A stretch of 64,000 bases of DNA from Labia minor. Its lineage: Eukaryota; Arthropoda; Insecta; Dermaptera; Spongiphoridae. Shown here in pieces: positions 13,786-50,734 of the stretch (positions within the stretch are counted from its first letter, which is position 1; each line of letters opens with the position of its first letter). The position numbers were made by a program, and so were the translations under genes. The stretch is from the NCBI GenBank assembly GCA_963082975.1, contig OY720344.1:87606107-87670106 (forward strand). The letters are read 5' to 3'. The notes under the pieces are model-generated. The model was not told where the DNA came from. It did not search any database and worked only from the letters and a program-made list of their open reading frames with translations.

Positions 13786-16700
13786 TTTTATACACAATCA
13801 CAATATATTTATTTACATATTATAATATTCACAAATATAATATTTCAAAATAATTACTAAAATTTTTGTCTCTGACTTAATTTATTATTCTTTTGCTTCT
13901 TCAAAAAATCCTTCACTGAAACACATTTACAAGCACTCTTTGTCAGTTAGGTCAAGAGTCATTTAGATTTATTATTCATTCAATAAGACACCCCTCTCTC
14001 TATTCTTTCCTTTCTTTCTTGACTTTTTGATAAAGCTATTTCATTCATCTCTCAATAAACACGCCAATATATTCCATATTTTCATGTTTATCCTGATATA
14101 TAAAACGTGACAGTACATCTCTAAAGAATTCGGTAAAGATAATCATCGAGTGATAGAGTGGGAAGAAGGTGCGGGTGGGGGGAAGAGAAATGCGAAAAGA
14201 GGGTGCAAGGAGCTAGCTGACTTACTGGCGCAAGGTTATCAAGGGTGAAAGGGGGCAAAGTTCACGTTACCCCAATGCAAGAAATATTATTATTATATTT
14301 TTTTGCTTGATAATGATTTATTAATCTTCTTGTTGGAGGTTTTTCAAAAAGTTTGAAGAAGATTGATTTTTCTTCTCTCTTCTTCACTCTTTTCACGAAT
14401 AGACTAAGCCCTATTAATTATTGAATAACGACATATTAATAAGGAAAAAAAAAGAAATTAGATAAAATAACAAAAAATAAAATTAAATAAAAAATATAAT
14501 AAAATAACACCAAAAAATTATAAAATTATGAATGATCTTTTAATAATGTGATAAGCTGGTTTCCAAATCTTAATTTCTTTAATGTATCAAATATAATAAA
14601 TAGGGTTCTATATATATAATGGTTTTATTTATTATATATCATCTTTTTTTATATAATAATATGTTTAAAAATATACATAACTCATTTATCAAACAAGAGA
14701 AGATACACAATAAATGGGATGTTTATGAATTTATTCTTTTTTATATAAAATTATTATTATTATTATTATTAGATAAGAAAATTGAGGGAAAAAATATATT
14801 GAAAATGTGTTTTTTCATCCGTCTGAATTTGAAACTTTGACTTTCCCTTGGGCGTCGTCTTTTTAATCATTTCCAAATATTTGGAAATTTTCAGTGCTTA
14901 TTTTGATAAATGTCGATTTAATACTTTCAAATTGTGTTTAAATAGAAAAATGAAAACTTAATATTAATATAAATGATAATGGTTTAAATTTTTCAATTAT
15001 AAAATATAATATATCTAACAAATGGTATATATATATATATATATAAACAACTCCATCCGTATTGCTAGATTATAATTTATACAGATGATGATTAATGCAA
15101 TGAAATAAAACTCTGATATAAAAAATATTTAGAACATCTACCATTTACGAATGAGAATGTAAACTACTATATACTAGTAGATATACTATTACATATATAT
15201 ACGTATATATATATATATATATTATAACATTTAAAATTACATAAAGTTTGTATATGTTTTAAATTGTATAAATAAATCATTGTGTTTTTTTTTTATTTCA
15301 ATGAATCATATAGTGATGTATGAATGATAAGAAGAGATTTAAAAAAATGATAAATCATTTTTAAAAATAAATATAAATGTTTATTATATACTTAATTTAA
15401 AAAAATAAAAATAGCATAATTGCAAGATATTAAAAAAAGAGAGATTTGGTTAAGTGATTTTTATTTTGTAGGGAAAACGAAAAAATTATAACAAAATGCA
15501 TATTAAGGAATATTATATCCCATTATGAAAATATATAAATAATTTACTGATTAAATTAAAAATAAAAATAGAAATTAAAGGTGTTAATATTTTGAATGAA
15601 ATTAAATAAATAAAAAACTTTTACACACATAAAGGCATTCAACAAAATACTATTTATTACTTCAGGGGGTACAGGATGGGGAGCACAGCGGCAGAATATA
15701 TTGATATTTATTTAAATGACAGCATTGTTTTTATTAAATGACTATTGTTATAATATCAATTTTTTTGACTATTTTTGCATTTGAAGAAGGACACAACTTG
15801 CACCCGAAACATCACCATAACTGGAATGTATTGTTAATCGATTTTCAAATTTTCTGTTATGTCTCTTTTTTAGTCAAAGAAATATTTAATTTTTCTCTTT
15901 TTAATTATCTTATATTTAACATATTTATTATATATATTATTATATATATTATTTTATATGAATTTCTTTTAATATTTTAATTATTTCTTATGAAATGTTT
16001 AGTCCCTTCTCTTTAGATTAGATGAATTTATTGAAAATAACTTTAAGAACTTAATTTCTACGTTCTAATTCAGTTTAATTAAATTTTTTGAAACATATTT
16101 TTATTAATATTCAGATAAACTAAATAAATATAATATTGTTTTTTAAATAAAAACTTGACTTTATATTCAATAGTTTATAAAAATTATAATCTCGAGGGGC
16201 CAACTTTAAGCACATACCTATAAATAATTATTATTATCAAAACTAAAAAAGTGACTTTTGCCCACATATCAACGTGAAAGTTATGAAAACTTTTTTAATA
16301 TTATATTAGAATAATTATTTAAATTTAAAAAAATAATTAATATTAATTTTGTTTTAAGATTATTACGGGTTTGGATGGCAATATTAATAAATGCGTTTGG
16401 GTGATTATAGTGAAAATATATATATCATCCTATCTACTCTTCCTATATTATAATCTCTCTTTTGTCTTTATTTATACATTGAAAATATCAGTCAATTTCT
16501 TTTTATGTAATTTTGATATCAAACACATTTTATATAAGAATATATTAAATGATTTGTGCTTTACATTCGAGTCTCTTATCTCGGTTTAGTGAACTGATCC
16601 ATTTATCCATACATTTTCGACAAAATGAATAGAAAATTATTAATATTAATTCACAAACGAATTTATTTAAATTTATATATTAATTTATTTCTTTTTATTT

Positions 16701-17199: not shown

Positions 17200-17659
17200 C
17201 TTATGGTACAATGTTTTCCAGATAAATAAGATAAATTTTAGATTAATATATACATTTTAAACTACCAAGCCGTATTTGTGCATTGAAAACATCAATAAAT
17301 TTGTTATTTCAAAACCTCAGAAATTTTTTAGTATAAAACTATTTAAAAAGATTTATTAAAAGCTTCCAGATGTTCATTCAAGCCCTCTTTAAAATATTAT
17401 TAAAAGAAATAATTTTTAAAGTTTCTTTATTATGTTACAAATTTTATGAATATTTTTTTTTTTTGTTAAAGGCATGATTTATCTATATATTTCGTAATTT
17501 GATTCTTAAGAATTATTAAAATAAAAATTTTTTTAATTTTAATTTGAAGTTAAATTAAAATAGAACTACACACATTTTAAAATTAAATATCTCGAAAATA
17601 TACAAGTATATATACAAATTTATTTATAGTACTAAGACAAAATATTTAGTAACAGAGAG

Positions 17660-18345
17660 AGGAATAGTATAAACACAAAAAGTCTTATCATACAAAATGT
17701 AGAATTCGAAAATGCAGAAAAATTTAAATGTTTAAATGCTTCTGTAATCACGAAGGAAAATATATGCGAGAAGAGAATTTAAATTGAAGTTACAATCGGA
17801 TAACGCCTGTTATCATGGAGTATAGGGGCTTATCTCGTCAAAATTATTACCAAAGGGATTCAAAATTAAAATATATAAAACAATTATTTTGCCTGTTGTA
17901 TTATATGGGTGTGAGACATGGTCTATGACTTTGGAAGACGAGAGAAGATTTAGAGTGTTTGAGAATAGGATTCTTCGCAGCATTTATGAGTTAAAGAAAG
18001 TTGAGGTAACCGAGGAATGGCGGAGTCTACATAACGAGGAATTGAATGACCTCTATGCATCTCCAGATATAGTTAGAATTATAAAATCGAGAAGGCTGCG
18101 ATGGGCAGGGAACGTGGCTAGAATGGGAGAAGAAAGAATGGCGAAAAATTTATTGTTAGGGAGACCGATTGGGAAACGTCCGCTTGGAAGACCAAGCTCG
18201 CGTTGAGTGGATAAAGGAAGGGACGTGAGAGAGATGGGAGAGGGTAGGGGTTGGATGGTTGTCGTTCAGGATAGGGACACTTGGAGTAATGTGGTTGATG
18301 CGACCAAGAACTTTCGAGTTCCCTAGAGCTACATAAATATACAAA
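17660..18345 (+). mobile_element. RTE-clade LINE, C-terminal third
   Basis: This is the longest copy of the LINE in the window. In successive frames it reads a late RT/thumb region (VEFENAEKFKCL, NACYHG), then ILPVVLYGCETWSMTLEDE, then the linker EEWRSLHNEELNDLY and the basic RRLRWAGNVARMGEE and GKRPLGRP stretches, ending FRVP-stop near 18326. The open piece at 17889-18206 gives 105 residues. Further frames are needed before and after it, so the copy is dead and 5'-truncated. The tail is a degraded ATAC/ATAA run. Orientation is plus. Confidence 0.88.
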
Positions 18346-18950
18346 TTTATATATACAAATATACAATTTTTGCTAGTATAATAAGATAAGATAAGATATG
18401 CATTATATGTATTATTTTGGAATATTGAGTACTTAGTGCTGGTTTTACAAAGATATTAGATTGTTATAATATTATTCTATTTTAGAAGATAAGAGCTTGA
18501 GACTTATGAGTGGGTCTCAAGTCTGGGCACTTTCATTTTAATTGGTTTATTCTTAGTTAAAGTGATTAATAAATCAACAGGTGGTAATAAATAACAAAAG
18601 TTATCAATATTATATAATATTAGATGTTGCAATTGGATATTTGATCTAATTTTGGAAATATGATATATAGAGCAAAGACTGTAAACATTACATGACTCTC
18701 ATTTATTATCAATTAAATTAGAATAGATATATTATATTACTAATAGTATATTTGATAATAACTTGTTTTGGATTAATTGAAGGGGACAAGAATGTTGTTA
18801 TTTAAAATACGCTTTATATATCTATCTCTTGTAGAAAAGGCTCGGTTTGTATATTGATTGGAAGTTTAAAAATTATACACCTATCTCTGTTTTCTTAACC
18901 TGGAATTTTAGAATTTTTATTAACGATCTGTCTTTCTAAAAAATAAATTT
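18346..18950. other. AT-rich spacer
   Basis: Nothing is recognised. Confidence 0.5.
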
Positions 18951-19896: not shown

Positions 19897-20347
19897 CTAG
19901 CTGCTCAGAGCGCCTTCGGCGCTCTTCACACCTAGACGGGGGCTCCGCCCCCTGTACCCCCGAGTGGTACATAGTATTTGGTTGAAAGTAGTAAAAGGTT
20001 TTCATCCATTTTGTTTCAATCATTATATTACATGAAACATTCATTTCTTTTTGTGTTCTTAATTAAAATATATTTCAATTTAATCAGTAAATTAATTATA
20101 GATATTATTATTGTATATGTTATATTTATCTATCTATGTGGCTCAAAGATACTCGAAAGTTCTTGGCCGCAAAAACTACATTTATCCAAGTGTCCCTATC
20201 CTGAGCCCTTGTCCCATCTCTCTTACGTCCCTTCCTACGCATCATTGGTCTTCCATGTGGACGTTTTCCAATCGGGCTCCCCTCCAATATCTTTTTCCTC
20301 TCCCATTCTAGCATGTGCAGACAAAAACTTTTCTTTATATATATAGA
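19897..20347 (-). mobile_element. non-autonomous Helitron carrying an RTE 3' end
   Basis: On the minus strand the element begins TCTATATATATAAAG, preceded by A. It ends in a GC hairpin (AGAGCGCC-gaa-GGCGCTCT, about 19906-19926) followed by CTAG and a T outside. These are the Helitron hallmarks: 5' TC, a subterminal hairpin, CTRR, A|T insertion and no target duplication. Inside, at 20123-20313, is the 3' end of the RTE LINE in the same orientation, including the GRP...FRVP domain and TAGA tail. Beyond it are about 220 bp shared with 50503-50734. There is no Rep/helicase frame. Confidence 0.85.
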
Positions 20348-20351
20348 TGAG

Positions 20352-20745
20352 AGATTGTGATCACGAAAATTTTCGATGACGAGATTTTGATGATGTTATA
20401 CGTTTTGAAGGTCTCTGAGTCATTTTCAATAAGGTTGAGAAAAATGTCTCTCTCTGTGTGTGTAGACAAGATTACGCAAAAACGGTTTGAGCTAATATTA
20501 GAATAATGAAATTTTGTATACGGGCATTATTCAAAATTCGTAGTTTTTTATCAACTTTTGACAAATGCAGCTCATTCGCAAAAGGACCATTGAAGCTAAA
20601 AGCTGTTGAAAACAAATACATTTTATAAATTTGCTAAACTCACAAAAATATAGTATTAATCCAAAAAGTCTTCTTATTTCAACAAAATGTTATCAGTGAA
20701 AATTTTGTTAAAATCTTTAAATCTTATGATCGGATAGATAGAATC
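20352..20745 (+). repeat. family X copy next to the Helitron
   Basis: It shares gatcacgaaaattttcgatg, gagattttgatg, a TG/TC microsatellite and tacgggcattattc with the copy at 5038. Its right part matches the later block around atgttatcagtgaaaattt. The extreme left end is missing where the Helitron 5' end abuts, so the Helitron probably landed in, or beside the start of, this copy. Confidence 0.65.
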
Positions 20746-21339
20746 ACACACCTCATTCACAAAAGGAGGTGGATGATCTTTTTACCCCAATATCATTTAA
20801 AGAGAGAAAATATGAAACACTAATTAACTTATTAAATAAAGTAAATTTTCAAATTTACTTATTCTAAATAATCATCTATACCTACTGGCATAGACTGGTA
20901 TAGACTTAAGGTACCTTAATCAATTTTGTATAAATTTTGTTTAAATTTTCTTTTTTTATCTCGTATTTAAATCATCTTTTGATAGCTCTTTACTTTTCTA
21001 TTTTTATTAATTCTATTTAAACCCATTTATGAAAATATCAAAACAATATTCCAAAAAAACCTAATATATATGATAAATCTATCATCTTGATATTATCTTG
21101 ATATTATACTATAATTCATATTTTATTTTCCAATAGTTTCTTTCAAAATTTTTATTTGTTTATTTTTTTTCTAAATTCCATTAAAATTGATAACCATTCG
21201 TTTCTTATATTAGAAAATTCAAATATATAAATTTATTTTAAAATTTTTGCATGCTTATTAAACATTTTTATGGAAATATTGGATGCAGAATTAATACGAT
21301 TAATAATTATAATAATAGAATATACTATTTAAATATTTC
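20746..21339. other. AT-rich spacer
   Basis: Nothing is recognised. Confidence 0.5.
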
Positions 21340-21449
21340 AAGTTTAAGTTGGGTGGCTTGTATTGCCGGTTGCCTAAATGCCAGGGGCTCCTAGTCGAGT
21401 GAAAGCTCGCTCAGTCAGTCAGTCAGTCGATTTCGTTGTGTAAGTGCGC
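21340..21449 (+). promoter_or_regulatory. candidate core promoter and 5' UTR
   Basis: This is a sharply GC- and CpG-richer patch in AT-rich DNA. Four overlapping copies of the arthropod initiator core tcagtc lie at 21411-21427. Downstream are a cgatttcg stretch and a possible start codon followed by a splice donor at 21511. There is no TATA box at the expected distance upstream, so it would be an initiator-type promoter. The evidence is motif and composition only. Confidence 0.4.
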
Positions 21450-21510
21450 ATGCCAACTCAAACCAGGCGGGCGGCGATGACGCTCTTTCTCTCTCTACTA
21501 TATCAAAAGG
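21450..21510 (+). CDS. candidate first coding exon
   Basis: The ATG at 21450 opens a frame reading MPTQTRRAAMTLFLSLLYQK, up to a canonical donor (caaaagg|gtaagt at 21510/21511). The second in-frame ATG at 21477 has a better context (gcggcgatg) and would give a short start MTLFLSLLYQK, which is hydrophobic like the beginning of a signal peptide. No following exon is recognised downstream in the window. It may equally be a non-coding first exon. The product is unknown. Confidence 0.3.
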
Positions 21511-24143
21511 GTAAGTGTATTTTCTATTGAAATTATCATAATTCACCAATATAAAGCGATCAATTAACATCACCTCTACCATCATTGTAATAAAGTCTCA
21601 AATGATTTACTGATTTTTTTTAATAATTATTTTAATAGAAAAATATCATATTTTTTTTTATTTCATATTCATATTATGAATGATATTTTATTTATTAATA
21701 TATATATATATATTTAACGTGATATATTTGCACATTACTCAAAATTTAATTTAATATTATTTACACATTTTATTAGAATTTGAAAATGTATATATCTTCT
21801 TTTCTTCTAATTAATCTCTTTTCTATTTCATTTTTCTCATGTCATTTAATATAATAGAATATATTATATATCGTACCCTATTTATATATATATAATGGTA
21901 TATATATTTCTATTTATTATTATTATTCTATTTTTTAATATTTTCTATTCAATATGAGTTGATTTTTTTAATATATATTTGGATATTATTATTAATTTAA
22001 GTAAATATAATTTTTTACTTTCAATTTGAAGTGACATTTATTCTAGAGATACCCAAACGGCAGGGTTAATTTATTTTATTTTTTTCTTTTATCTTATAAT
22101 TTACTGTTTAATTTATCTAAAAAAATGATAAATTCTGATAAACATTTATTCTTTCAATATCAATTATTTTCTGAGAATTCTACATGATTATCAAAATCAA
22201 AAATCAATTGAAATTTAAATAGAAATCATTTTAACATTCTCTTTTAATTATAGATAATATAAAAGGTCAGTTTTTAATACTTTCATTTATTAAACAAGAA
22301 TTTTATTATGTGTATTTCAAAGTATTTTTAATCTGCATTAAAAAAAATACAACTGATTATAAAGGTAGATATTTTATTAGAATGAATTAATTATAAATTT
22401 GGAAATAATTTTAAAACTCGGAAGCTTCTATTAGCTAAACAGCGTAGGCGTTACGTTATATATATTATATATTATTCGTATTCTATATTCTATTGTATAT
22501 ATCTCGAGACAACTCCCAATATATTTACTTGTTTTTCTTATTTTGATTTCAAGCAAGAGCTATTGAACTAATATATATATTTTCATGTTATCACAAAAAA
22601 ACATCTGATCAGTTAATTTATAAAATATTTCAGTTAAATAGAATTTCTATGCTGAATTTAAATTTGAATATAAGAAATAGAAAAATTCGTAATTCTTAAA
22701 TGTTATACCATTATGTATTGCTAAATACAAATTTGAGAAAATGCAAAGTTAGAGACTTGAGACAATTTATAAAATAAAATTAACATAATTATCGTTATAA
22801 AACTAAAGATAAATTAACAATATATATTAATAGTATTTATTTAATTTAATTGATTTATTTGTTTTGTTATTATTAAGTTCATTTATTATTTTTTTTAGAT
22901 CTTAGTTAATTTCCTCCCTTAAAAGAAACTTATCTAATTCTGTAGTGCTAGGAATTTGAAAATTATTAGTCGCAACATGAAGATTTCGCTTACAGTTTCT
23001 GTCATGTCCGACCTCCATCCAACAGTTATTTTCTCTCAAGTTTCTTGCTTCTCTTAATCAGGTGATCTATATATTTAATTTTTTTTGATTCATTATAATA
23101 AAATTTAAACAAATAAAAAGTTTCATTTAGTTAATTTATATAAATATCAATTTAAACTTATTGTGAGTCATACGCTTTGCCAAGACTCTGAATAATTTGT
23201 GCACAGAAATATTGACTGTTCTTAGCGAGATTTGATATAATGTTGTCCGATTTGTCCTAAATCTGAATTAGAAGAAAATTATAAATTGCCTCCTCTTCCA
23301 GCCCAATTCATTTACCCATCCATGTTGTATAAGCATCTTAATTTCTTAACACTACGTTTTTATAAATTTAAAATAGAGGGAGAGAAAGAGTTTCTAATTA
23401 TATTCGAATAGTCTATTATATTCTATTTTTTTCTGTATTTTTTTCTGAATTTAATACCAAGTTGATTTTCAAAATTTTCCATTCTTAATGCATATGATTA
23501 ATTACATATGTTAAAATTTAAAAAAATTCAAATATTCTAATTTTTAAATTTATATATAATTTAATATTATTTTTTATTAATATCATATCAAAAAAGAGCA
23601 TTTATTAAAAATTAAAAATAAAAAAAGAAGCTTATTAATAAAAAAATATAATACAATAATTTTGATTTAAAACAAATTTTAAAAAAATACTCAATATATA
23701 AAAGTCATAAATTTAAAACATCTCGTTTATATCATTTGTCTAAAAAATCATATTTTAATTTTATATATCCAAGAAATCATTATAAAATATAGTTGTAATT
23801 AATAATTGAAACAAAAACAAAAATAATATAATTTAGTCATTTTAATTGACGTTTTGAAAATATTTTTGTATTCATAAAACATTAAAAATAATATATTCTG
23901 TTTTTTTAACCTTTCGCTTTCAAATAGAAAATAAGAAATATTCAAATATATAGAAAGAATAAATAAACATTAAGTTAAATATGATCCAAATATTTTATTA
24001 AATTAATTACAATGAGAACTTTTAGAATAAATTATTTAATTGAATTGATATTTGAATATTAGAATTTAAAATAAAAAGTGAAATATTATAATGATTCTTT
24101 GATTGGGAATCGCTATGATAATTCATTGTTTAAAATGATTCCG
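21511..24143. other. AT-rich spacer, possibly intronic
   Basis: No exon with paired splice sites and no repeat with clear ends is seen. If the first-exon call is right, this would be intron. Confidence 0.4.
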
Positions 24144-24484
24144 CTAGGGACAGTGAGCCGCGAGATGCTCTTGAATGAACAACACGCAGAATTATATAAA
24201 CTTAAAAAATTAATTTCTGCGGTTATTGATTAAATATTAATAAAATTTATAGCCTATGTTACTCTAGAGGTATATAAGAATATTATGATGTAATTTCATA
24301 GAAATCGGTTCAGCCAATTCTGAGTCTATAAAATAGTTATTTTCCGGACAGACAGACAGACAGACAAACATGAAAAATTCTAAAGTCACTTTTGGATTCT
24401 AGAGGTCATGAAACGCAAAGATATGCAAAAAATTTTTAAATTCTGAGCAATGTGCAGACAAAAACCTTTTTATATATATATAGA
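24144..24484 (-). mobile_element. short non-autonomous Helitron
   Basis: On the minus strand it starts TCTATATATATATAAAAAGG preceded by A, and shares the following tttttgtctgcacat with the Helitron at 20347. It contains the GTCTGTCTGTCTGTC run and the ctgaaccgatttctatgaaa block usual in insect Helitrons. It ends with a hairpin-like agagc...gctc and CTAG at 24144-24147. The base after CTAG is C rather than the usual T. There is no coding capacity. Confidence 0.75.
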
Positions 24485-33215: not shown

Positions 33216-34762
33216 ACAACATTATTAAATATAAGAATATAATTTCATTATTACAAATTTGAATAATCGTTACGCAAATGAAACTTACTTTTTATTTAAT
33301 TAATTATTTATTTATTTTTTTAATTTACTTTTCTAATTTTTTTCTTAATATTAGTTAAAATAAAACTTCTTTAAATACCACTATATATCCACTTTCAAAC
33401 ATTGTTATTTAAAATCTAAATAAATAATTAAAATAATTAAAAAATTTTAATTAATATTGTAATGGGATTTGATCACTTTCACTCTTTTAACTTTATCTAT
33501 TTAACTATTCCTTTTGAGAATAAATTAAATAAGTTAAAAATAAAAACAGCAATATATAAGATAAAATTTTCATCCAAGTTAATTTATAATTCTCTTGCAA
33601 TAACTTTATAAAAGTCTTGAAGTAATGATAGATCTTAGCAAACCATAAAGAAAATAGAGAAGAATATTGATAATGTGGATGGTGGATGCCAGATTAAGAT
33701 ATCCCTTTTTTAAAAACACACACTGCCTTGAAAGATGATAAGTTTATCTATCAATGGAATAAATGCTCTTCATTTATTATATATAGGTATAATAAATTTG
33801 GCATGAAACGAAATATTATACATCAATTTTATCTCGATATCATATTAAATGTTTATAAATTTATTTTTCTTTTACTTTATATCTTCTATTATTACAACAC
33901 ATCAATCATTTAATAAAAATCATATTTAACATTTATTCACATATTATAAAGTTTTTATCAACTCCGCTTCATGTCTCTCTGTCTGTTCGCGCTTTTGACA
34001 AATCGAAATCGATTTTTCATCAACTTAATATTAAGATAGACTTTTGATAATTTTTATAGCAATTTCAATGGATCCCTAGAAGGTATGGAAGAAATATAAT
34101 TGAATTATAATTAATTAATTTTAATGTAATTGACGATTATTTGATTTACTATTTTAATTTTCATATAAGCCACTGATGGATAAATATTGTGTTGGTTTTC
34201 ATTTTGAAAGAAATTCAAAATAATTTATAACATTAAAAGATACATTTTTAATTAATATAATAATTATAATAAATATATTTTAAAAATATTACTTCAATAA
34301 TAACATTTACTTAATTATAATCATTTTTTATGTTTTATTCTATTTGCAAGTAACTAACTACTCCGATTAATTTTTTTTCAACGGATTCTGTAGCATAAAT
34401 ACTGATTTCAGGATAGATTTTCATTTTGAATGTAATTAATAATATGTTATAGCATTAAAATCAATGATGGATTCTTATTAATCAGTTGTAGCGCCTTAAA
34501 TGGCATATAGAAAAGATCCTTTTTTTATCCTATATACATTTATAAAATCTCATATTAATAAAAATTATTTATTTATAAATATAATAGAATAATTATTTTT
34601 CTATAATAACATTTACTTAACATAAATACATAAAATCAATTTTAGAAGATTAATATTTTTTCTTTTTGTTTTAATCAATTTGCAAATTTTCGTATAACTT
34701 CATCTTTTCTATTTCTCTTGTTATATTAAATAAATTTATCAAATTAAAATTGCACTAAAAAG
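33216..34762. other. AT-rich spacer
   Basis: Nothing is recognised. Confidence 0.5.
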
Positions 34763-34934
34763 AAAAAAAAAAATATAAATATAAAAAAAAATTTATAAAA
34801 TAACGTTTTTAGTTGAATATGAAGCAATTCATCCATAAACTTTGTCAAGCTTATAGAAAAATTATTTTATTCTTTTTAGTCGATGAGAAAAACGTTATTT
34901 TATAAAATTTTTTTTATATTTATATTATTTTTTA
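34763..34934. repeat. foldback element with about 47-bp inverted arms
   Basis: Left arm 34763-34810 and right arm 34888-34934 are near-perfect reverse complements. Both carry ttataaaataacgttttt (or its complement) next to A-rich and tataaatataa stretches. The loop of about 77 bp is non-coding. It looks like a small MITE, but the target duplication is hidden in A/T runs. Confidence 0.7.
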
Positions 34935-41653: not shown

Positions 41654-42501
41654 TGTAACGGCCTCCCTTTGTTTAAGCCACCGTGGCATGGAAACTTTCC
41701 ATTCACGACATCCGTTGGATAGCAATATAACGGAAAATGTGACAAGTCAAGTCATTGGCTCAAATAAGGGATGACACCACCATTATTTGGCCAATGAGAG
41801 GCATTAAAACAGAGAGCAAGTGTAAATACTGGTGTCAAGAAAACAGTTGTCTAGAAGCTTTGAAAGAGGAAAGACGTGTCGAACCGACCGCCTTCCTCGC
41901 CATTTTCAAACGCTCTCTAAATTTCTCACACTTCGCCTTCACCTGTACAATAGGGATTAAACTATTCCCTATTGCCGAGGTAGTTTGATTTGAACGAAAA
42001 TCTGCTAGTTCTTCATTCTATTCTCCCACAGTTCTTTTTCTTTTCCTTTTCCTTTCCTAGAAATTATCTTCGGGTGAAACCTTGATAATTTCCCCTCCCC
42101 TGCAATTATATCTAATCTAAGATTGTACCTCAATCAACCTCTCTGTATATAATATTGTAAATATAAAATATATGTATATAGAAGACTTCTTTTTCTTACC
42201 CTTTCTCCTAGATATTCTAGTAAACCTAATTTTTCCCTCCTTATTCTTTTTCACTTATTCCCCTTCTCTATCTTTCCTTTTACGAGTTTCGTAAAACTCG
42301 TTGGCGCTCAACCCTTTCATCACTCTCACCTTCCATTGTAAAGGAGACCTGAAACCTCTCCCTACAAGTTCCCCTTTCCCGAGGCGGTGGTAAGCCTGAA
42401 AGCCCCTCCCCTCACTCCTCTGTCCCTCTCCTTGTAAGTGTGGATCGCTGGACTGCCGTCACCTCCCCTCCATCGCTGGCACCCAGTGTAACCCCACTAC
42501 A
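41654..42501 (+). repeat. 5' LTR of the Gypsy element
   Basis: 848 bp, beginning tgtaacggcctccctttg and ending aaccccactaca. It is followed directly by the primer binding site. A pyrimidine-rich region occupies the second half. A 77-codon frame inside it appears in both LTRs because the LTRs are the same sequence, and it is not a gene. Confidence 0.95.
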
Positions 42502-42503
42502 AT

Positions 42504-42520
42504 TGGCGCCCAACGTGGGG
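42504..42520 (+). promoter_or_regulatory. primer binding site
   Basis: tggcgcccaacgtgggg begins two bases after the LTR end. It starts with the TGG expected to pair with a tRNA CCA end. The tRNA species is not assigned here. Confidence 0.88.
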
Positions 42521-43079
42521 CCGATAAGCAAAGCACCCTGAGAGAAGAAAAATTGTGAAAGTGTTGTGTATTATTAACAATTTGTGTAACCCCAGTGAAA
42601 GTGTCGAGTGAAAATCCAACCCCTTATACCAACCACAGTGAAAGTGAAATTTCTTCCCTCCCAATAGCTAACGCTCCGTCGAGTGGAGAAACTTTCCCCT
42701 ACCTTGGTTCGAGGTTGTTACGTCACCGGTCAGCTGTTTGGAAAATCTGATCACAGATTTGATGGGACATCTTTATACACATACACTTAAGTACAATTTG
42801 ACATTGTTTAAATATCATTTAATGATATTAATTTAATCCGTTGATTAAAAAAATTTTTTTTCTTCTATTTTCTATTAAAACCTATTCATATACATTCAAA
42901 CACAACATAATTTGAATGAAATAATAAACTATTATTATCATTCATATTTAATATCAATTAGGCTAGCTAATTGATCTAATTATTAGAATTGTACTCGATT
43001 CACTAGCTGAATATATTAGTTATATTTTATTTATCAATTAATGATAAACTTTATAAATCTTTTGAATAAAAATTATTTT

Positions 43080-43620
43080 TATAATTATTATTATTAAAAT
43101 TAATCCTTTGATTAACCAAATGATTATATTAGTATCAATACTATTAATCATAATTTTCGTTATCAATCAATGATAGCAACAATAAGCCTTTGATTTTTAA
43201 ATTGTAAATCAAGCTTTATTAACAATTTAGTATAAAACGCTTACGTTAAGTAATCGAATTATTATTAAAGTTAATCCTTTGATTAACCAATGATTATATT
43301 AGTGTCAATACTATTAATCATAATTTTTGTTATCAATCAAGGTAACAATATTAAATCTTTGATTTTTAAATTATAAATCAAGCTTTATTAACAATTTAGT
43401 ATTAAAAGCATTACGTTAAGTAATCGAATTATTATTAAAGTTAATCCTTTGATTAACCAATGATTATATTAGTGTCAATACTATTAATCATAATTTTTGT
43501 TATCAATCAAGGTAACAATATTAAATCTTTGATTTTTAAATTATAAATCAAGCTTTATTAACAATTAAATATTGACATCATTACATTATTTAATAAGTTA
43601 GTATTAACTTTAATCCTTTA
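43080..43620 (+). repeat. tandem repeats in the Gypsy leader, about 170 bp unit
   Basis: Three units start with taatcctttgattaacc at 43101, 43272 and 43442 (spacing 171 and 170). A degenerate fourth start lies at 43611, with further echoes at 42834, 43915 and 44148. Each unit also holds atcaatc-type and aaatcaagctttattaac blocks. The second and third units are nearly identical, the first more diverged. They lie between the primer binding site and gag and are non-coding. Confidence 0.9.
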
Positions 43621-44457
43621 ATTAAGTACTTATGTAAACTAGTGTTAAGACTCTCTATTAATTATATTTTATTATCAGTTAATGATAAGTTATCGAATCT
43701 TGTGATTCAAATCATCTTTAGTTGAATTGTTAATGAATTATTTTAATTCAAAATTGAATATCAAATTCACTTAAACTGATTAAACTAATCAGTAAAAAAT
43801 TACATTAGTTCACTTAGGTGAATGTATTTATTTATAACAAAAATACTATTATTCAAGCTTTAATAGCAGTAAGATCTGGTAAGCAATTCTTAAGTAATAG
43901 GTTGTTACAAACATTAATCCTTTGATTAACTCATTTAATTATAATAGTATTAATCTATTAATCGTATTATTCATTATCAGTTAATGATAACAAAATCTTT
44001 GGTGATTTAATAATTCATTCTACAATTGAATTGATAATAAGTTGTTATTGTACAATATTTAATAACATAATATACTATTATTCTAACTCTTTGTGAATAC
44101 CAATTAGATTCTAAGCAATCTATAACTATTCATATTAGTATTAAGTTTAATTCTTTGATTAAATAATAATATTTCTCTAATTAAAACTGTGATCATTAGA
44201 ATCACTAATAGATTTACACTTAAGTAAATATTTATATTTAAGATAGTGTCATTACATTATTCTATAAGTTATATATAAATTCATAATATCTCTATTTGAT
44301 CATTATCAAATTACAACTCTTTCCTTTCATAGATTTAAGACTGTGAAACTGTGTTAGATTTAAGCCAAGTTTCCTAGGATATAGCTAACATTTATATATA
44401 TTATTGTTCCTATAATACCTATCGTCTTACAACTTAAGACAAACCCTTCCTTACAGA

Positions 44458-46398
44458 ATGGAAACTATTGCGGATTTTACTAAAACCGATCTGTTGATCG
44501 CGGCAGAGGAAATGGAGATCCCAGTGGATCCCAAAAGTAAATTAATTACTATTATTAATGCATTTAAAACTCATCCTAGTTATGATGCAGTTACCACCAT
44601 TTCCATACTTCGAAATATTAGAGAAGCTAGACTTGAAGAAAAGAGGCTCAAGAAAGAGTCTGAGGCTAGAGCTCACGAATTGGAAAAATTAAAAATTACC
44701 AACCCTCAAGCCCCTCCTTTATTAACCACCCCTCATGTGGATATGATTAACAGGATTATACCGTTTAATCCACAATCTGATGATATTACTAGTTATCTAA
44801 TAACTTTCACAAAACAAATGAATATTTTAAAGGTACCTGACAACCAATGGGTAAATATCCTGTTGTCAACTTTACCTTTAGAAATCACTTCTTTGATTTA
44901 TAAAGAAGCTGAATCGAATAACGAAATTACTTTCGATATTATTAAAACCATATTGAAGCAACGTTTTAAAATTACCCCGCAGTCAATGCGTCGACTATTT
45001 TTTAACTCTGTTAAACCTAACCCTTTATCTTGGAAGGATTATTGCTATTCATTAGACAACCATCTCGATACATGGCTTCTCGAATTGGAAATCGACTCTT
45101 TTGAAAAATTAAAAGATGCACTAATTGCTTGTCAGCTTAAAAAACAAGTCTCGGTTGAGTGTCGCAACCATTTTATAGACAGTTGGGAATTTCTTAATGA
45201 TCCCTACGAGCTATCTAATAAATTAGATAATTATGATAGTCTTAGGAAGGCACCAGGGGAGAAATCAATTAGAAACCCCGCAGGTAGGCAAACTACCGGA
45301 CCTACTAATCCTCTTCCTAAAGAGAAATCTCTTGTACCTATCAACCATAGTCCTCCTGAGGAATTAAAATGTTATGGGTGTGGACAGTTGGGAGTTACTA
45401 AACCTAAGTGTTTAAAGTGCAATCCTAAGCCTAACCCAACTGGCACCAATTTAAAACTTATTCACTTAAATAACTTTAAACATGATGATCATGATACCTC
45501 GCCATATATACCTACTGTCATCAACACCATCCAAATGAATAGTTGTATTGACACCGGTGCTTCGCACACAATAGGTAGTAATGAATTATTGGATAATTTA
45601 ATGAGAAATAAAAAGTTAATTTTTAAATCCGAATGGATTAAAGTCACTCTCGCTGATGGGATTACCCGTGACTATGAATGTCTAACCCTTCCTGTTGAGG
45701 TAAAAATTAAAAATAAGACATTCGAGATACCTTTTCACTTCTTAGTAAAAGGACAAATTAAAGATAACCTCCTTGGTATCGATTGTCTGAAAGTGTTCAA
45801 AATCATCATCGATACCCATAAAGGAACGTGGCACTTCAGTGACAACGACACTGAGGTCTATACTTTTTCCAATAAAAATAATAATAAGGAGTTACTCAAG
45901 TCAAAAACTCCTGATGATAAAGATAAACTATCTATAAATAATAATACATTATTGAATGTACACAATAATCAATCTACTTTGACACACGATGCCCATAGTA
46001 AATTGGCATCGATGCTCCAAGAATTTGACGATGTCTTCACACCAGGGGGAGAACCCACCCCGTGTGGAGAACTTAAAATTAAACTAATTAGTGATGACCC
46101 AGATACATCCAACCCTTATGGTTTATCCCCGCACAAACGGGACATATTGAAGAAAGAGATTTCCTCTCTCCTTCAAGACAGCATCATAGAGGAGTGTGAA
46201 TCCCCATATGCCTCTCCGGTTGTCCTCGTGGATAAACCCACTGGTTTATTGAGAACCCGGAAGAAAGAAAAAATCTTTTCTAGTCCTGGCGCCAGGTACG
46301 AGGGCGTATCACCTGGGCCAGAGGGGGAGTGTAACGGCCTCCCTTTGTTTAAGCCACCGTGGCATGGAAACTTTCCATTCACGACATCCGTTGGATAG
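44458..46398 (+). CDS. gag-protease frame of the Gypsy element
   Basis: One continuous frame of 646 codons starts METIADFTKTDLLIAAEEME. In order it shows a charged, coiled-coil-like stretch (about residues 50-80) and a capsid-like region (about 95-240). Next come a cysteine motif CYGC...CLKC near 304-320 (nucleic-acid binding) and an aspartic protease site DTGAS near 364, with a second protease motif LLGID near 438. Near 545-590 lies the sequence usual at the entry to a Gypsy reverse transcriptase (FDDVF...SPYASPVVLV). Gag and protease share one frame, so no frameshift is needed between them in this family. The start is the first ATG after the leader. It belongs to a broken element. Confidence 0.88.
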   Translation: METIADFTKTDLLIAAEEMEIPVDPKSKLITIINAFKTHPSYDAVTTISILRNIREARLEEKRLKKESEARAHELEKLKITNPQAPPLLTTPHVDMINRIIPFNPQSDDITSYLITFTKQMNILKVPDNQWVNILLSTLPLEITSLIYKEAESNNEITFDIIKTILKQRFKITPQSMRRLFFNSVKPNPLSWKDYCYSLDNHLDTWLLELEIDSFEKLKDALIACQLKKQVSVECRNHFIDSWEFLNDPYELSNKLDNYDSLRKAPGEKSIRNPAGRQTTGPTNPLPKEKSLVPINHSPPEELKCYGCGQLGVTKPKCLKCNPKPNPTGTNLKLIHLNNFKHDDHDTSPYIPTVINTIQMNSCIDTGASHTIGSNELLDNLMRNKKLIFKSEWIKVTLADGITRDYECLTLPVEVKIKNKTFEIPFHFLVKGQIKDNLLGIDCLKVFKIIIDTHKGTWHFSDNDTEVYTFSNKNNNKELLKSKTPDDKDKLSINNNTLLNVHNNQSTLTHDAHSKLASMLQEFDDVFTPGGEPTPCGELKIKLISDDPDTSNPYGLSPHKRDILKKEISSLLQDSIIEECESPYASPVVLVDKPTGLLRTRKKEKIFSSPGARYEGVSPGPEGECNGLPLFKPPWHGNFPFTTSVG

Positions 46399-47177
46399 CA
46401 ATATAACGGAAAATGTGACAAGTCAAGTCATTGGCTCAAATAAGGGATGACACCACCATTATTTGGCCAATGAGAGGCATTAAAACAGAGAGCAAGTGTA
46501 AATACTGGTGTCAAGAAAACAGTTGTCTAGAAGCTTTGAAAGAGGAAAGACGTGTCGAACCGACCGCCTTCCTCGCCATTTTCAAACGCTCTCTAAATTT
46601 CTCACACTTCGCCTTCACCTGTACAATAGGGATTAAACTATTCCCTATTGCCGAGGTAGTTTGATTTGAACGAAAATCTGCTAGTTCTTCATTCTATTCT
46701 CCCACAGTTCTTTTTCTTTTCCTTTTCCTTTCCTAGAAATTATCTTCGGGTGAAACCTTGATAATTTCCCCTCCCCTGCAATTATATCTAATCTAAGATT
46801 GTACCTCAATCAACCTCTCTGTATATAATATTGTAAATATAAAATATATGTATATAGAAGACTTCTTTTTCTTACCCTTTCTCCTAGATATTCTAGTAAA
46901 CCTAATTTTTCCCTCCTTATTCTTTTTCACTTATTCCCCTTCTCTATCTTTCCTTTTACGAGTTTCGTAAAACTCGTTGGCGCTCAACCCTTTCATCACT
47001 CTCACCTTCCATTGTAAAGGAGACCTGAAACCTCTCCCTACAAGTTCCCCTTTCCCGAGGCGGTGGTAAGCCTGAAAGCCCCTCCCCTCACTCCTCTGTC
47101 CCTCTCCTTGTAAGTGTGGATCGCTGGACTGCCGTCACCTCCCCTCCATCGCTGGCACCCAGTGTAACCCCACTACA
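46330..47177 (+). repeat. 3' LTR of the Gypsy element
   Basis: 848 bp and indistinguishable by eye from the 5' LTR. It is preceded by the polypurine tract agagggggag and followed by the target duplication aagt. Confidence 0.95.
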
Positions 47178-49775: not shown

Positions 49776-50305
49776 ATCATTTAGGCGCCATTTTCAAGAG
49801 AATTTGTTTTTAAGAGAAAATTTTTGATAGTCTGTTGTAACCAATAATCAATATTAGGATTTTGGATAGATTGTGTTTGTATTCTTGAACTTTCGGTACT
49901 AGCACTGACACTGACACTGACACACGACCGGCTCGTACCACTCCACTGTTAAGTAGAAAGAACTAAACTTATTTTTCAAAAAAATTATTTCATATTTTTT
50001 CTTTTGTTTGTTTCAGGTAAGGAAATCATATCTCAAATATTTTTTTCTCTACAATAAATGGTGAGTTTTATTAAAGTTCATCAGTAAATATTTTAGTTTA
50101 AAAATCTCTTATAATTTTATACTAGAAAAATTGTATTTATCTATCGGTCTTTATCGAATCGAATATTATTACTATTTTAATGCAACTTATTTTACATAAC
50201 ATAGATCTCAAAACAGGTATTTAATTGCAAATCATCATTCCCTCTTCCTTTTCCCGCCTTATCCACTCTTTTATAATTATTGTTTTATTCTTAAAATAGT
50301 CATGC
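49776..50305. other. spacer with a small GACACT repeat
   Basis: actgacactgacactgacac at 49903-49922 is a short hexamer repeat in otherwise unassigned sequence. Confidence 0.4.
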
Positions 50306-50734
50306 GATAGGCAGGGGACGTGGCTAGAATGTGAGAGGAAAAAGATATTGGTGCGGAGACCGATTGGAAAACGTCCGCTTAGAAGATGCGCAGGAAGGGG
50401 TGTAAGAGAGATGGGACAAGGGTTCAGGATAGGGACACTTGGAGAAATGTGGTTGTTACGGCCAAGAACTTTCGAATATCTTTGAGCCACATAGATAGAT
50501 AGATAGATATACCATATACAATAATAATATATATAATTAATTTACTGATTAAATTAAAATATATTTTAAATAAGAACACAAAAAGAAATGAATGTTTTAT
50601 GTAATATACTGATTGAAACAAAATGGATGAAAACCTTTTACTACTTTCAACCAAATACTATGTACCACTCGGGGTACAGGGGGCGGAGCCCCCGTCTAGG
50701 TGAGAAGAACGCCGAAGGAGCTCTGAGAAGCTAG
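50306..50734 (+). mobile_element. RTE 3' end joined to a Helitron 3' end
   Basis: From 50306 the sequence is the RTE C-terminal block (GDVARM-like, then RPIGKRPL-like, ending FRI..-L*) with a TAGA tail at about 50490-50510. About 220 bp follow that match the Helitron at 19897-20122. The end has a hairpin (gccgaaggagctct region) and CTAG at 50731-50734 followed by T. No Helitron 5' end is seen to the left, so the copy is 5'-truncated or its start is unrecognisable. It keeps about 20 bp more of the RTE on the left than the 20347 copy. Confidence 0.75.

Follow-up and report, generated by a model that had tools for sequence, protein, structure and literature searches.

The 451-bp copy and its surroundings

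The DNA analyzed here (the window, 64,000 nucleotides at G000:C1:87606107-87670106) comes from a 604-Mb genome in 71 contigs (25.7% G+C). On the minus strand at 19897-20347 it carries a short transposon copy that begins with TCTATATATATAAAG, with an A immediately before it, and ends in CTAG, after which a T follows; the 3′ end reads, in order, GAGCGCC/GGCGCTC hairpin, TGAGCAG, CTAG (Table 1). Folding of the last 75 nt of this copy gave -25 kcal/mol and a z score of -5.9, and 0 of 200 shuffled sequences folded as well. The Helitron terminal hallmarks that an earlier note on this DNA had described on this strand (TC start after an A, hairpin, CTAG before a T) were confirmed.

Table 1. Features in the window; "element" positions are those of the 2,437-bp reference unit, and a slash marks the point of insertion
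Feature	Position	Strand	Basis or comment
451-bp internally deleted Helitron-family copy	19897..20347	-	element 1-45 region joined to 2021-2437
Helitron 5′ terminus, TCTATATATATAAAG..., A before	20313..20347	-	91% to element 1-45
RTE-like LINE 3′ end with GATA-type tail	20125..20312	-	aligned with native copies of the LINE
TATAACATATACAATA, 3′ copy of the LINE's 16-bp target-site duplication	20109..20124	-	sequence; duplication and empty site elsewhere
Helitron 3′ tail, including the terminal hairpin and CTAG; next base T	19897..20108	-	sequence, folding
Terminal hairpin GAGCGCC-GAA-GGCGCTC, 11 nt from 3′ end	19908..19924	-	sequence, folding
Repeat Q/X, abutting the 451-bp copy on its upstream side	20348..22735	-	common in pieces to three 451-bp copies
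5′ portion of another Helitron copy, element 1-1094	22729..24484	-	alignment; interrupted at 23233-23902
Second copy, LINE piece and Helitron tail	50303..50734	+	matches element 2001-2437 only
Native (non-Helitron) RTE-like LINE 3′ region	17622..18358	+	76.6% over element 1556-2222
Paralogous empty site for the L041 Helitron insertion	34576..34782	+	179/207 identical, uninterrupted ACA/TAAATAC

Alignment to the reference unit (L046:473-2909; L numbers denote genomic stretches under comparison) demonstrated that the 451-bp copy consists of 35 bp of the Helitron 5′ end and 416 bp of its 3′ end, the first 35 bp of the reference being fused to element 2021-2437. The junction created by this deletion occurs 16 times genome-wide (control, 0). 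The earlier note had proposed searching the genome with the 451-bp sequence, expecting many copies that share both termini and the LINE piece. When the best 40 of 1,796 candidates were scored, the join of LINE and Helitron sequence was found in many copies, as anticipated, but most lacked query bases 1-29 or 1-35: only 3 of the 40 matches started at base 1, and 37 started at base 30 or 36. In those of the other copies that were extracted, the sequence upstream of base 36 is further LINE sequence, and the LINE piece of full units measures about 1 kb. The 451-bp element is an internally deleted derivative and not the unit that amplified, as the note had supposed.

A repeat of about 2.4 kb lies upstream of this copy and is common, in pieces, to the three 451-bp copies compared (window, L031, and L032), so the A before TC at 20347 cannot be taken as a separate insertion edge for each of them. 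The 3′ flanks of the three look unrelated despite the common upstream repeat. This looks as though what moved was a longer unit with its end at the Helitron CTAG. Farther upstream, the 5′ portion of another Helitron copy is broken off at repeat Q, short of the LINE insertion point.

The same arrangement had been claimed for 50306-50734 in the opposite orientation. The LINE piece (50303-50507), a copy of the duplication with one mismatch (50508-50523), and the Helitron tail (to 50734) are indeed present on the plus strand, but alignment to the reference element revealed no Helitron 5′ end at this copy. Its hairpin has decayed (z -1.9, with 9 of 200 shuffles as good).

Several further features were observed in the window. 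At 15515-15675 a 68% match to the Helitron tail starts just past the point at which the LINE inserted; no LINE match lies immediately before it, and it is possibly an old LINE-free copy. Two 300-bp direct repeats at 41654-41953 and 46330-46629 are 100% identical and 4.7 kb apart, and between them a 660-aa open reading frame (44416-46398) runs into the second repeat; its motifs look gag/protease-like, and the repeats and frame at 41654-46629 are perhaps a recent LTR retrotransposon. A tandem 170-bp repeat of about three copies, 96-97% alike in their best-matching parts, lies at 43119-43579. Rfam and tRNA searches of the window gave no match.

A canonical Helitron family present in thousands of copies

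The 5′ end of the full unit was recognized once longer flanks were available: 15 of the 20 copies examined in this way have an end like TCTATATATATAAAAAAAGGTTTTTGTCTGCACATTGCTCAG, two of the 15 being 451-bp forms. Unit lengths were obtained by pairing exact 5′ and 3′ ends lying on the same strand of contig C1 within 6 kb of each other, among the matches listed. On this basis, 70 of 90 exact 5′ ends had a partner (opposite-strand control, 2), the lengths of the paired units peaked near 2.4, 2.9, 3.3, and 3.9 kb, and 46 of the 70 measured 2.3-3.4 kb. A length of 318 bp was seen in 2 of these 70. Very short derivatives, at L034 2932-3249 (318 bp) and at L069 from base 1, have the LINE deleted and retain roughly 125 bp at the 5′ end and 148 bp at the 3′ end.

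Genome-wide counts were made with up to 3 mismatches, and each had a control of 0. The junction of LINE tail and duplication, probed with a 35-mer (LINE tail, 16-mer, and three more bases), gave 5,254 matches, which bears out the earlier proposal that LINE piece and Helitron were copied together. The Helitron 3′ end gave 9,898 matches and the 5′ end 3,226, the latter with a 37-mer that includes the leading A, so that the allowed mismatches may fall on that A. The 5,254 filled junctions leave about half of the 9,898 3′ ends unexplained, and these could belong to LINE-free copies, to short forms produced by deletion, or to copies with more mutations.

The insertion behavior was assessed from flanks and from empty sites. 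Of 30 genomic copies, 29 have T and one has C immediately 3′ of CTAG. The 5′ end is readable in 18 copies; TC is preceded by A in 16 of them and by T in two, although at least 4 of the 16 copies with A share a single upstream repeat and are not independent. L040 and L041 have a common 3′ flank and look like duplicates of one insertion. The joined flanks of 18 copies were then compared with the genomic stretches under comparison, and three paralogous empty sites were found, two of them clean, with target duplication absent at all three. Besides the L041 site in the window, these are an L048 site that is 299/300 identical with an uninterrupted ATCA/TTAC, and an L034 site that is 214/225 identical, lying within TA-rich sequence and containing a small gap. 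L034 also matched L040 and L048, outside this count, and flank self-matches (L043, L048, and L026), AT-rich L046 matches (69-80%), and one gapped 76% match of the window copy were not counted as empty sites. The empty duplicate of the L048 flanks lies nearby, at L048 5951-6250; a near-identical duplicate without the Helitron hints at a recent insertion.

A hairpin about 11 nt from the 3′ end is present in the family as well (z -5.3 for L046). Features of canonical Helitrons given in the accessible part of PMC4067079 were found: a 5′ TC, a 3′ CTRR, and integration between A and T that leaves the target unduplicated. A Helentron or HINE affiliation was rejected, since T-rich TT insertion sites would be expected and insertion between A and T was observed. 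By structure and insertion behavior, the family is a canonical Helitron.

No Rep/helicase was found in the units: in a tblastn search of the genomic stretches compared, one Rep protein of this genome matched only L061 and L062. Because this protein matched no unit, the family was classified as non-autonomous, and we infer an autonomous partner. The genome contains 104 PF14214 Rep/helicase matches, several of them in open frames of over 1,600 aa. For one intact Rep/helicase family (L063 and L064), the downstream stretch has no match to the tail of this Helitron. L069 has a short copy of the Helitron family downstream of another Rep/helicase gene; it is uninformative about the partner, as it may be nested. 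No shared ends that would decide the partner were found at L061, L062, L063, L064, and L069. A Rep/helicase family at G000:C9:43365333 has several 1,652-aa open frames of equal score, and a run of 23 A lies on its 3′ side (L063 668-690). TTAGG telomere repeats were looked for and not found.

The LINE piece, its duplication and LINE-free relatives

Native copies of the LINE (window 17622-18358, L065, and L066) align with the element from about 1210 to 2222, from the reverse-transcriptase core to the GATA-type tail. A native copy matched RVT_1 with an E value of 2.3e-9, the one family matched; RTE, the type named in the earlier note, is a putative assignment. The 126-aa LINE open reading frame of the window matched no Pfam family, and a PDB search with the C-terminal LINE open reading frame gave no match. 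Genome-wide, a native LINE query produced 8,071 first-look candidates, of which the best 40 were scored. The LINE piece within the Helitron is 5′-truncated at about element 1203, has several internal deletions, ends in its own (GATA)n tail, and lies in the same orientation as the Helitron, with its 3′ end about 230 bp inside the Helitron 3′ end. That such a LINE end, tail included and oriented like the Helitron, forms the core of the 451-bp copy had been described correctly; the stop codon reported with it was not found. By direct reading against the native frame, TTG stands in both window copies where the native LINE has its stop TAG, and the next in-frame stop lies inside the GATA tail.

The LINE piece is flanked at fixed offsets by a 16-bp duplication, TATAACATATACAATA or a close variant. 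Both LINE junctions were readable in 21 of 30 copies, and in 20 of these the left and right 16-mers are alike at 12-16 of 16 bases: 16 in five copies, 15 in three, 14 in six, 13 in five, and 12 in one. The exception is L035 (8/16), in which the left side has been lost by deletion. The duplication is exact today in 5 of the 21. As exact words, its longest stretches are 16-17 bp in five copies and 5-11 bp in 16, and imperfect duplications amounting to only 5-11 bp in such words would not stand alone. Random window pairs drawn from the same elements gave an exact word of at least 16 bp in 1 of 2,550 draws. The earlier note had regarded a LINE piece with its own target duplication, inside an otherwise intact Helitron at just these two loci, as refuting its reading; the duplication does exist, but in a family of thousands.

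LINE-free relatives with an unfilled site were identified. The pattern of an unfilled site occurs at 31 places genome-wide (control, 0), of which 29 resemble, by sequence, the 5′ junctions of filled copies and two, L067 and L068, the ones examined at greater length, are unfilled. At L067, Helitron sequence corresponding to element 1083-1179 is followed by a single 16-mer and then by the Helitron tail to CTAG, with T as the next base; at L068 the order is the same, with element 756-1179, a single 16-mer, the tail to CTAG, and then A. A search with L067, in which the best 40 of 1,936 candidates were scored, gave 41 rows, all of which cross the junction without an insert and have lengths from -4 to +22 bases relative to the query span. 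Apart from L067 itself, these LINE-free rows are 79-89% identical to it.

A lenient BLAST for LINE-free copies among the genomic stretches compared was swamped by chance matches in sequence of 26% G+C and was set aside; some of its spanning matches (window 23233-22533, 79%, and L031 4759-4312, 68%) may be real and are uncounted. A tail query without LINE sequence led to 10 loci, and every one of them carries the LINE, with parts missing at L057 and L055; eight of the 10 were already among the matches of the 451-bp query.

Upstream in L068, at 123-246 of its reverse complement, lies another LINE 3′ end, older and in the same orientation; it is 75% identical to the native LINE across 127 nt (E 3.6e-17). 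By homology it corresponds to about 756-900 of the reference element, but no LINE match of their own was found at E 0.01 in the reference element, L067, or the window copy. This older end hints that the Helitron has been a repeated target of LINEs.

Probable retrotransposition into the Helitron followed by amplification

A target-site duplication together with unfilled relatives is what one classically expects when a LINE has inserted into an element already in place. The 16-bp duplication and the LINE-free relatives with a single uninterrupted site argue that the LINE arrived by ordinary retrotransposition and not by Helitron capture. Very probably, a LINE retrotransposed into a non-autonomous Helitron, and the filled Helitron was then amplified to thousands of copies by Rep/helicase supplied in trans. 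In the proposed course of events, target-primed reverse transcription would have placed a 5′-truncated RTE-like LINE in a non-autonomous canonical Helitron at TATAACATATACAATA, a site about 230 bp ahead of the Helitron 3′ end, and would have produced the 16-bp target-site duplication. Helitron (Rep/helicase) enzymes acting in trans would have replicated the filled element, inserting it between A and T without duplication until it reached thousands of copies, and later internal deletions would have yielded shorter forms, the 451-bp window copy among them.

The order of these events is drawn from divergence. The 3′ 415 bp of 30 filled copies have a median pairwise identity of 96.1% (range 93.4-100%); beside the lower identities of the LINE-free rows, this fits a lineage that was ancestrally without the LINE and a filled form that spread in a more recent burst, although the comparison is indicative only, as both samples are the best-scoring matches for their own query and are biased accordingly. 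An active part for the insert, in which it would have raised the success of the filled lineage over its LINE-free relatives, for example through changes in transcription, silencing, or termination near the rolling-circle end, appears unlikely.

The earlier note had explained the composite by capture of a LINE 3′ end by the Helitron; at the DNA level, a genomic LINE end would be taken up through end bypass or filler DNA. Capture of host fragments by Helitrons is known (PMC6544945, accessible text), but it predicts neither a 16-bp duplication lying exactly at the LINE 5′ truncation point and again after the microsatellite tail, nor LINE-free relatives in which the site stands once and unfilled, and with both present we give this origin very little credence. 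It is hardly conceivable, moreover, that the whole unit is a LINE with a Helitron-like 3′ UTR, spread by target-primed reverse transcription with 5′ truncation. On first inspection the copies had a common 3′ end and variable 5′ breakpoints, as this would require, but no convincing outer duplication was found at 15 coarse breakpoints: the longest word was 10 bp, A-rich, and confined to one copy, with all others at 8 bp or less. With longer flanks, the fixed TC end emerged in 15 of 20 copies, and 70 of 90 5′ ends paired with a 3′ end (contig C1, among the matches listed), while the three empty sites show insertion between A and T without duplication. The model was dropped on account of the fixed 5′ end, the breakpoints of L035 and L018 being internal deletions.

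The note had further suggested that the LINE 3′ end could let LINE enzymes act on Helitron transcripts; part of the spread would then have occurred by reverse transcription. This suggestion received no direct support. The Helitron 5′ end is absent in 12 of 30 copies, but for 7 of these 12 only 1.5 kb of upstream sequence was examined. In a deduplicated set of the genomic stretches compared, 33 matches with identities of 85% or more cross the LINE end: 32 of them continue to the Helitron end, one breaks off at element 2386, and no match ends at the LINE tail, which lies about 230 bp from the 3′ end of the unit. This is a weak test, since most of the loci were found by tail-bearing queries. A contribution of LINE enzymes to the spread is most improbable. 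Retrotransposition of the LINE into the Helitron, followed by amplification of the filled form, is the reading that we carry into the comparison with known systems.

Canonical non-autonomous animal Helitrons resemble this family in the 5′ TC, the 3′ CTAG, the hairpin 11 nt from the end, and insertion between A and T, and likewise lack a target duplication and Rep/helicase; the difference here is a LINE insertion common to thousands of copies. Foreign sequence amplified inside a Helitron is shared with Hel1 of insects and with the maize and bat families cited in the accessible text of PMC6544945. The fragment-capturing Helitrons treated there differ in that the piece described here carries a LINE target-site duplication, for which reason we regard it as inserted and not captured. 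According to the available part of PMC4067079, the endonuclease of Helentrons is related to those of CR1 LINEs, and retrotransposition of a LINE into a Helitron is one of two routes considered. A rolling-circle element with a LINE-derived piece is thus found in both cases, but the Helentron piece is coding and lies in the transposase gene, whereas the present one is degenerate, comes from the LINE 3′ region, and has a readable route of arrival. Nesting of a retroelement in a Helitron is also represented by the LTR/Gypsy element in HELPO1.2 of Pleurotus, which the accessible text of PMC4289320 describes in one extra copy; here, the filled form was amplified. In a literature search of limited reach, comprising sources available in part, no earlier example of a LINE target duplication inside an amplified Helitron was found.

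Each process is already known, and it is the record of the event that is unusually complete. Where LINE pieces occur in rolling-circle transposons, capture and LINE insertion are hard to separate afterwards, and the available part of PMC4067079 leaves both open. In this family, the surviving duplication, the truncation point, the tail, and the LINE-free relatives allow retrotransposition followed by amplification to be separated from capture. The case also carries a warning: the presence of a foreign piece in thousands of Helitron copies does not by itself prove that the piece was captured.
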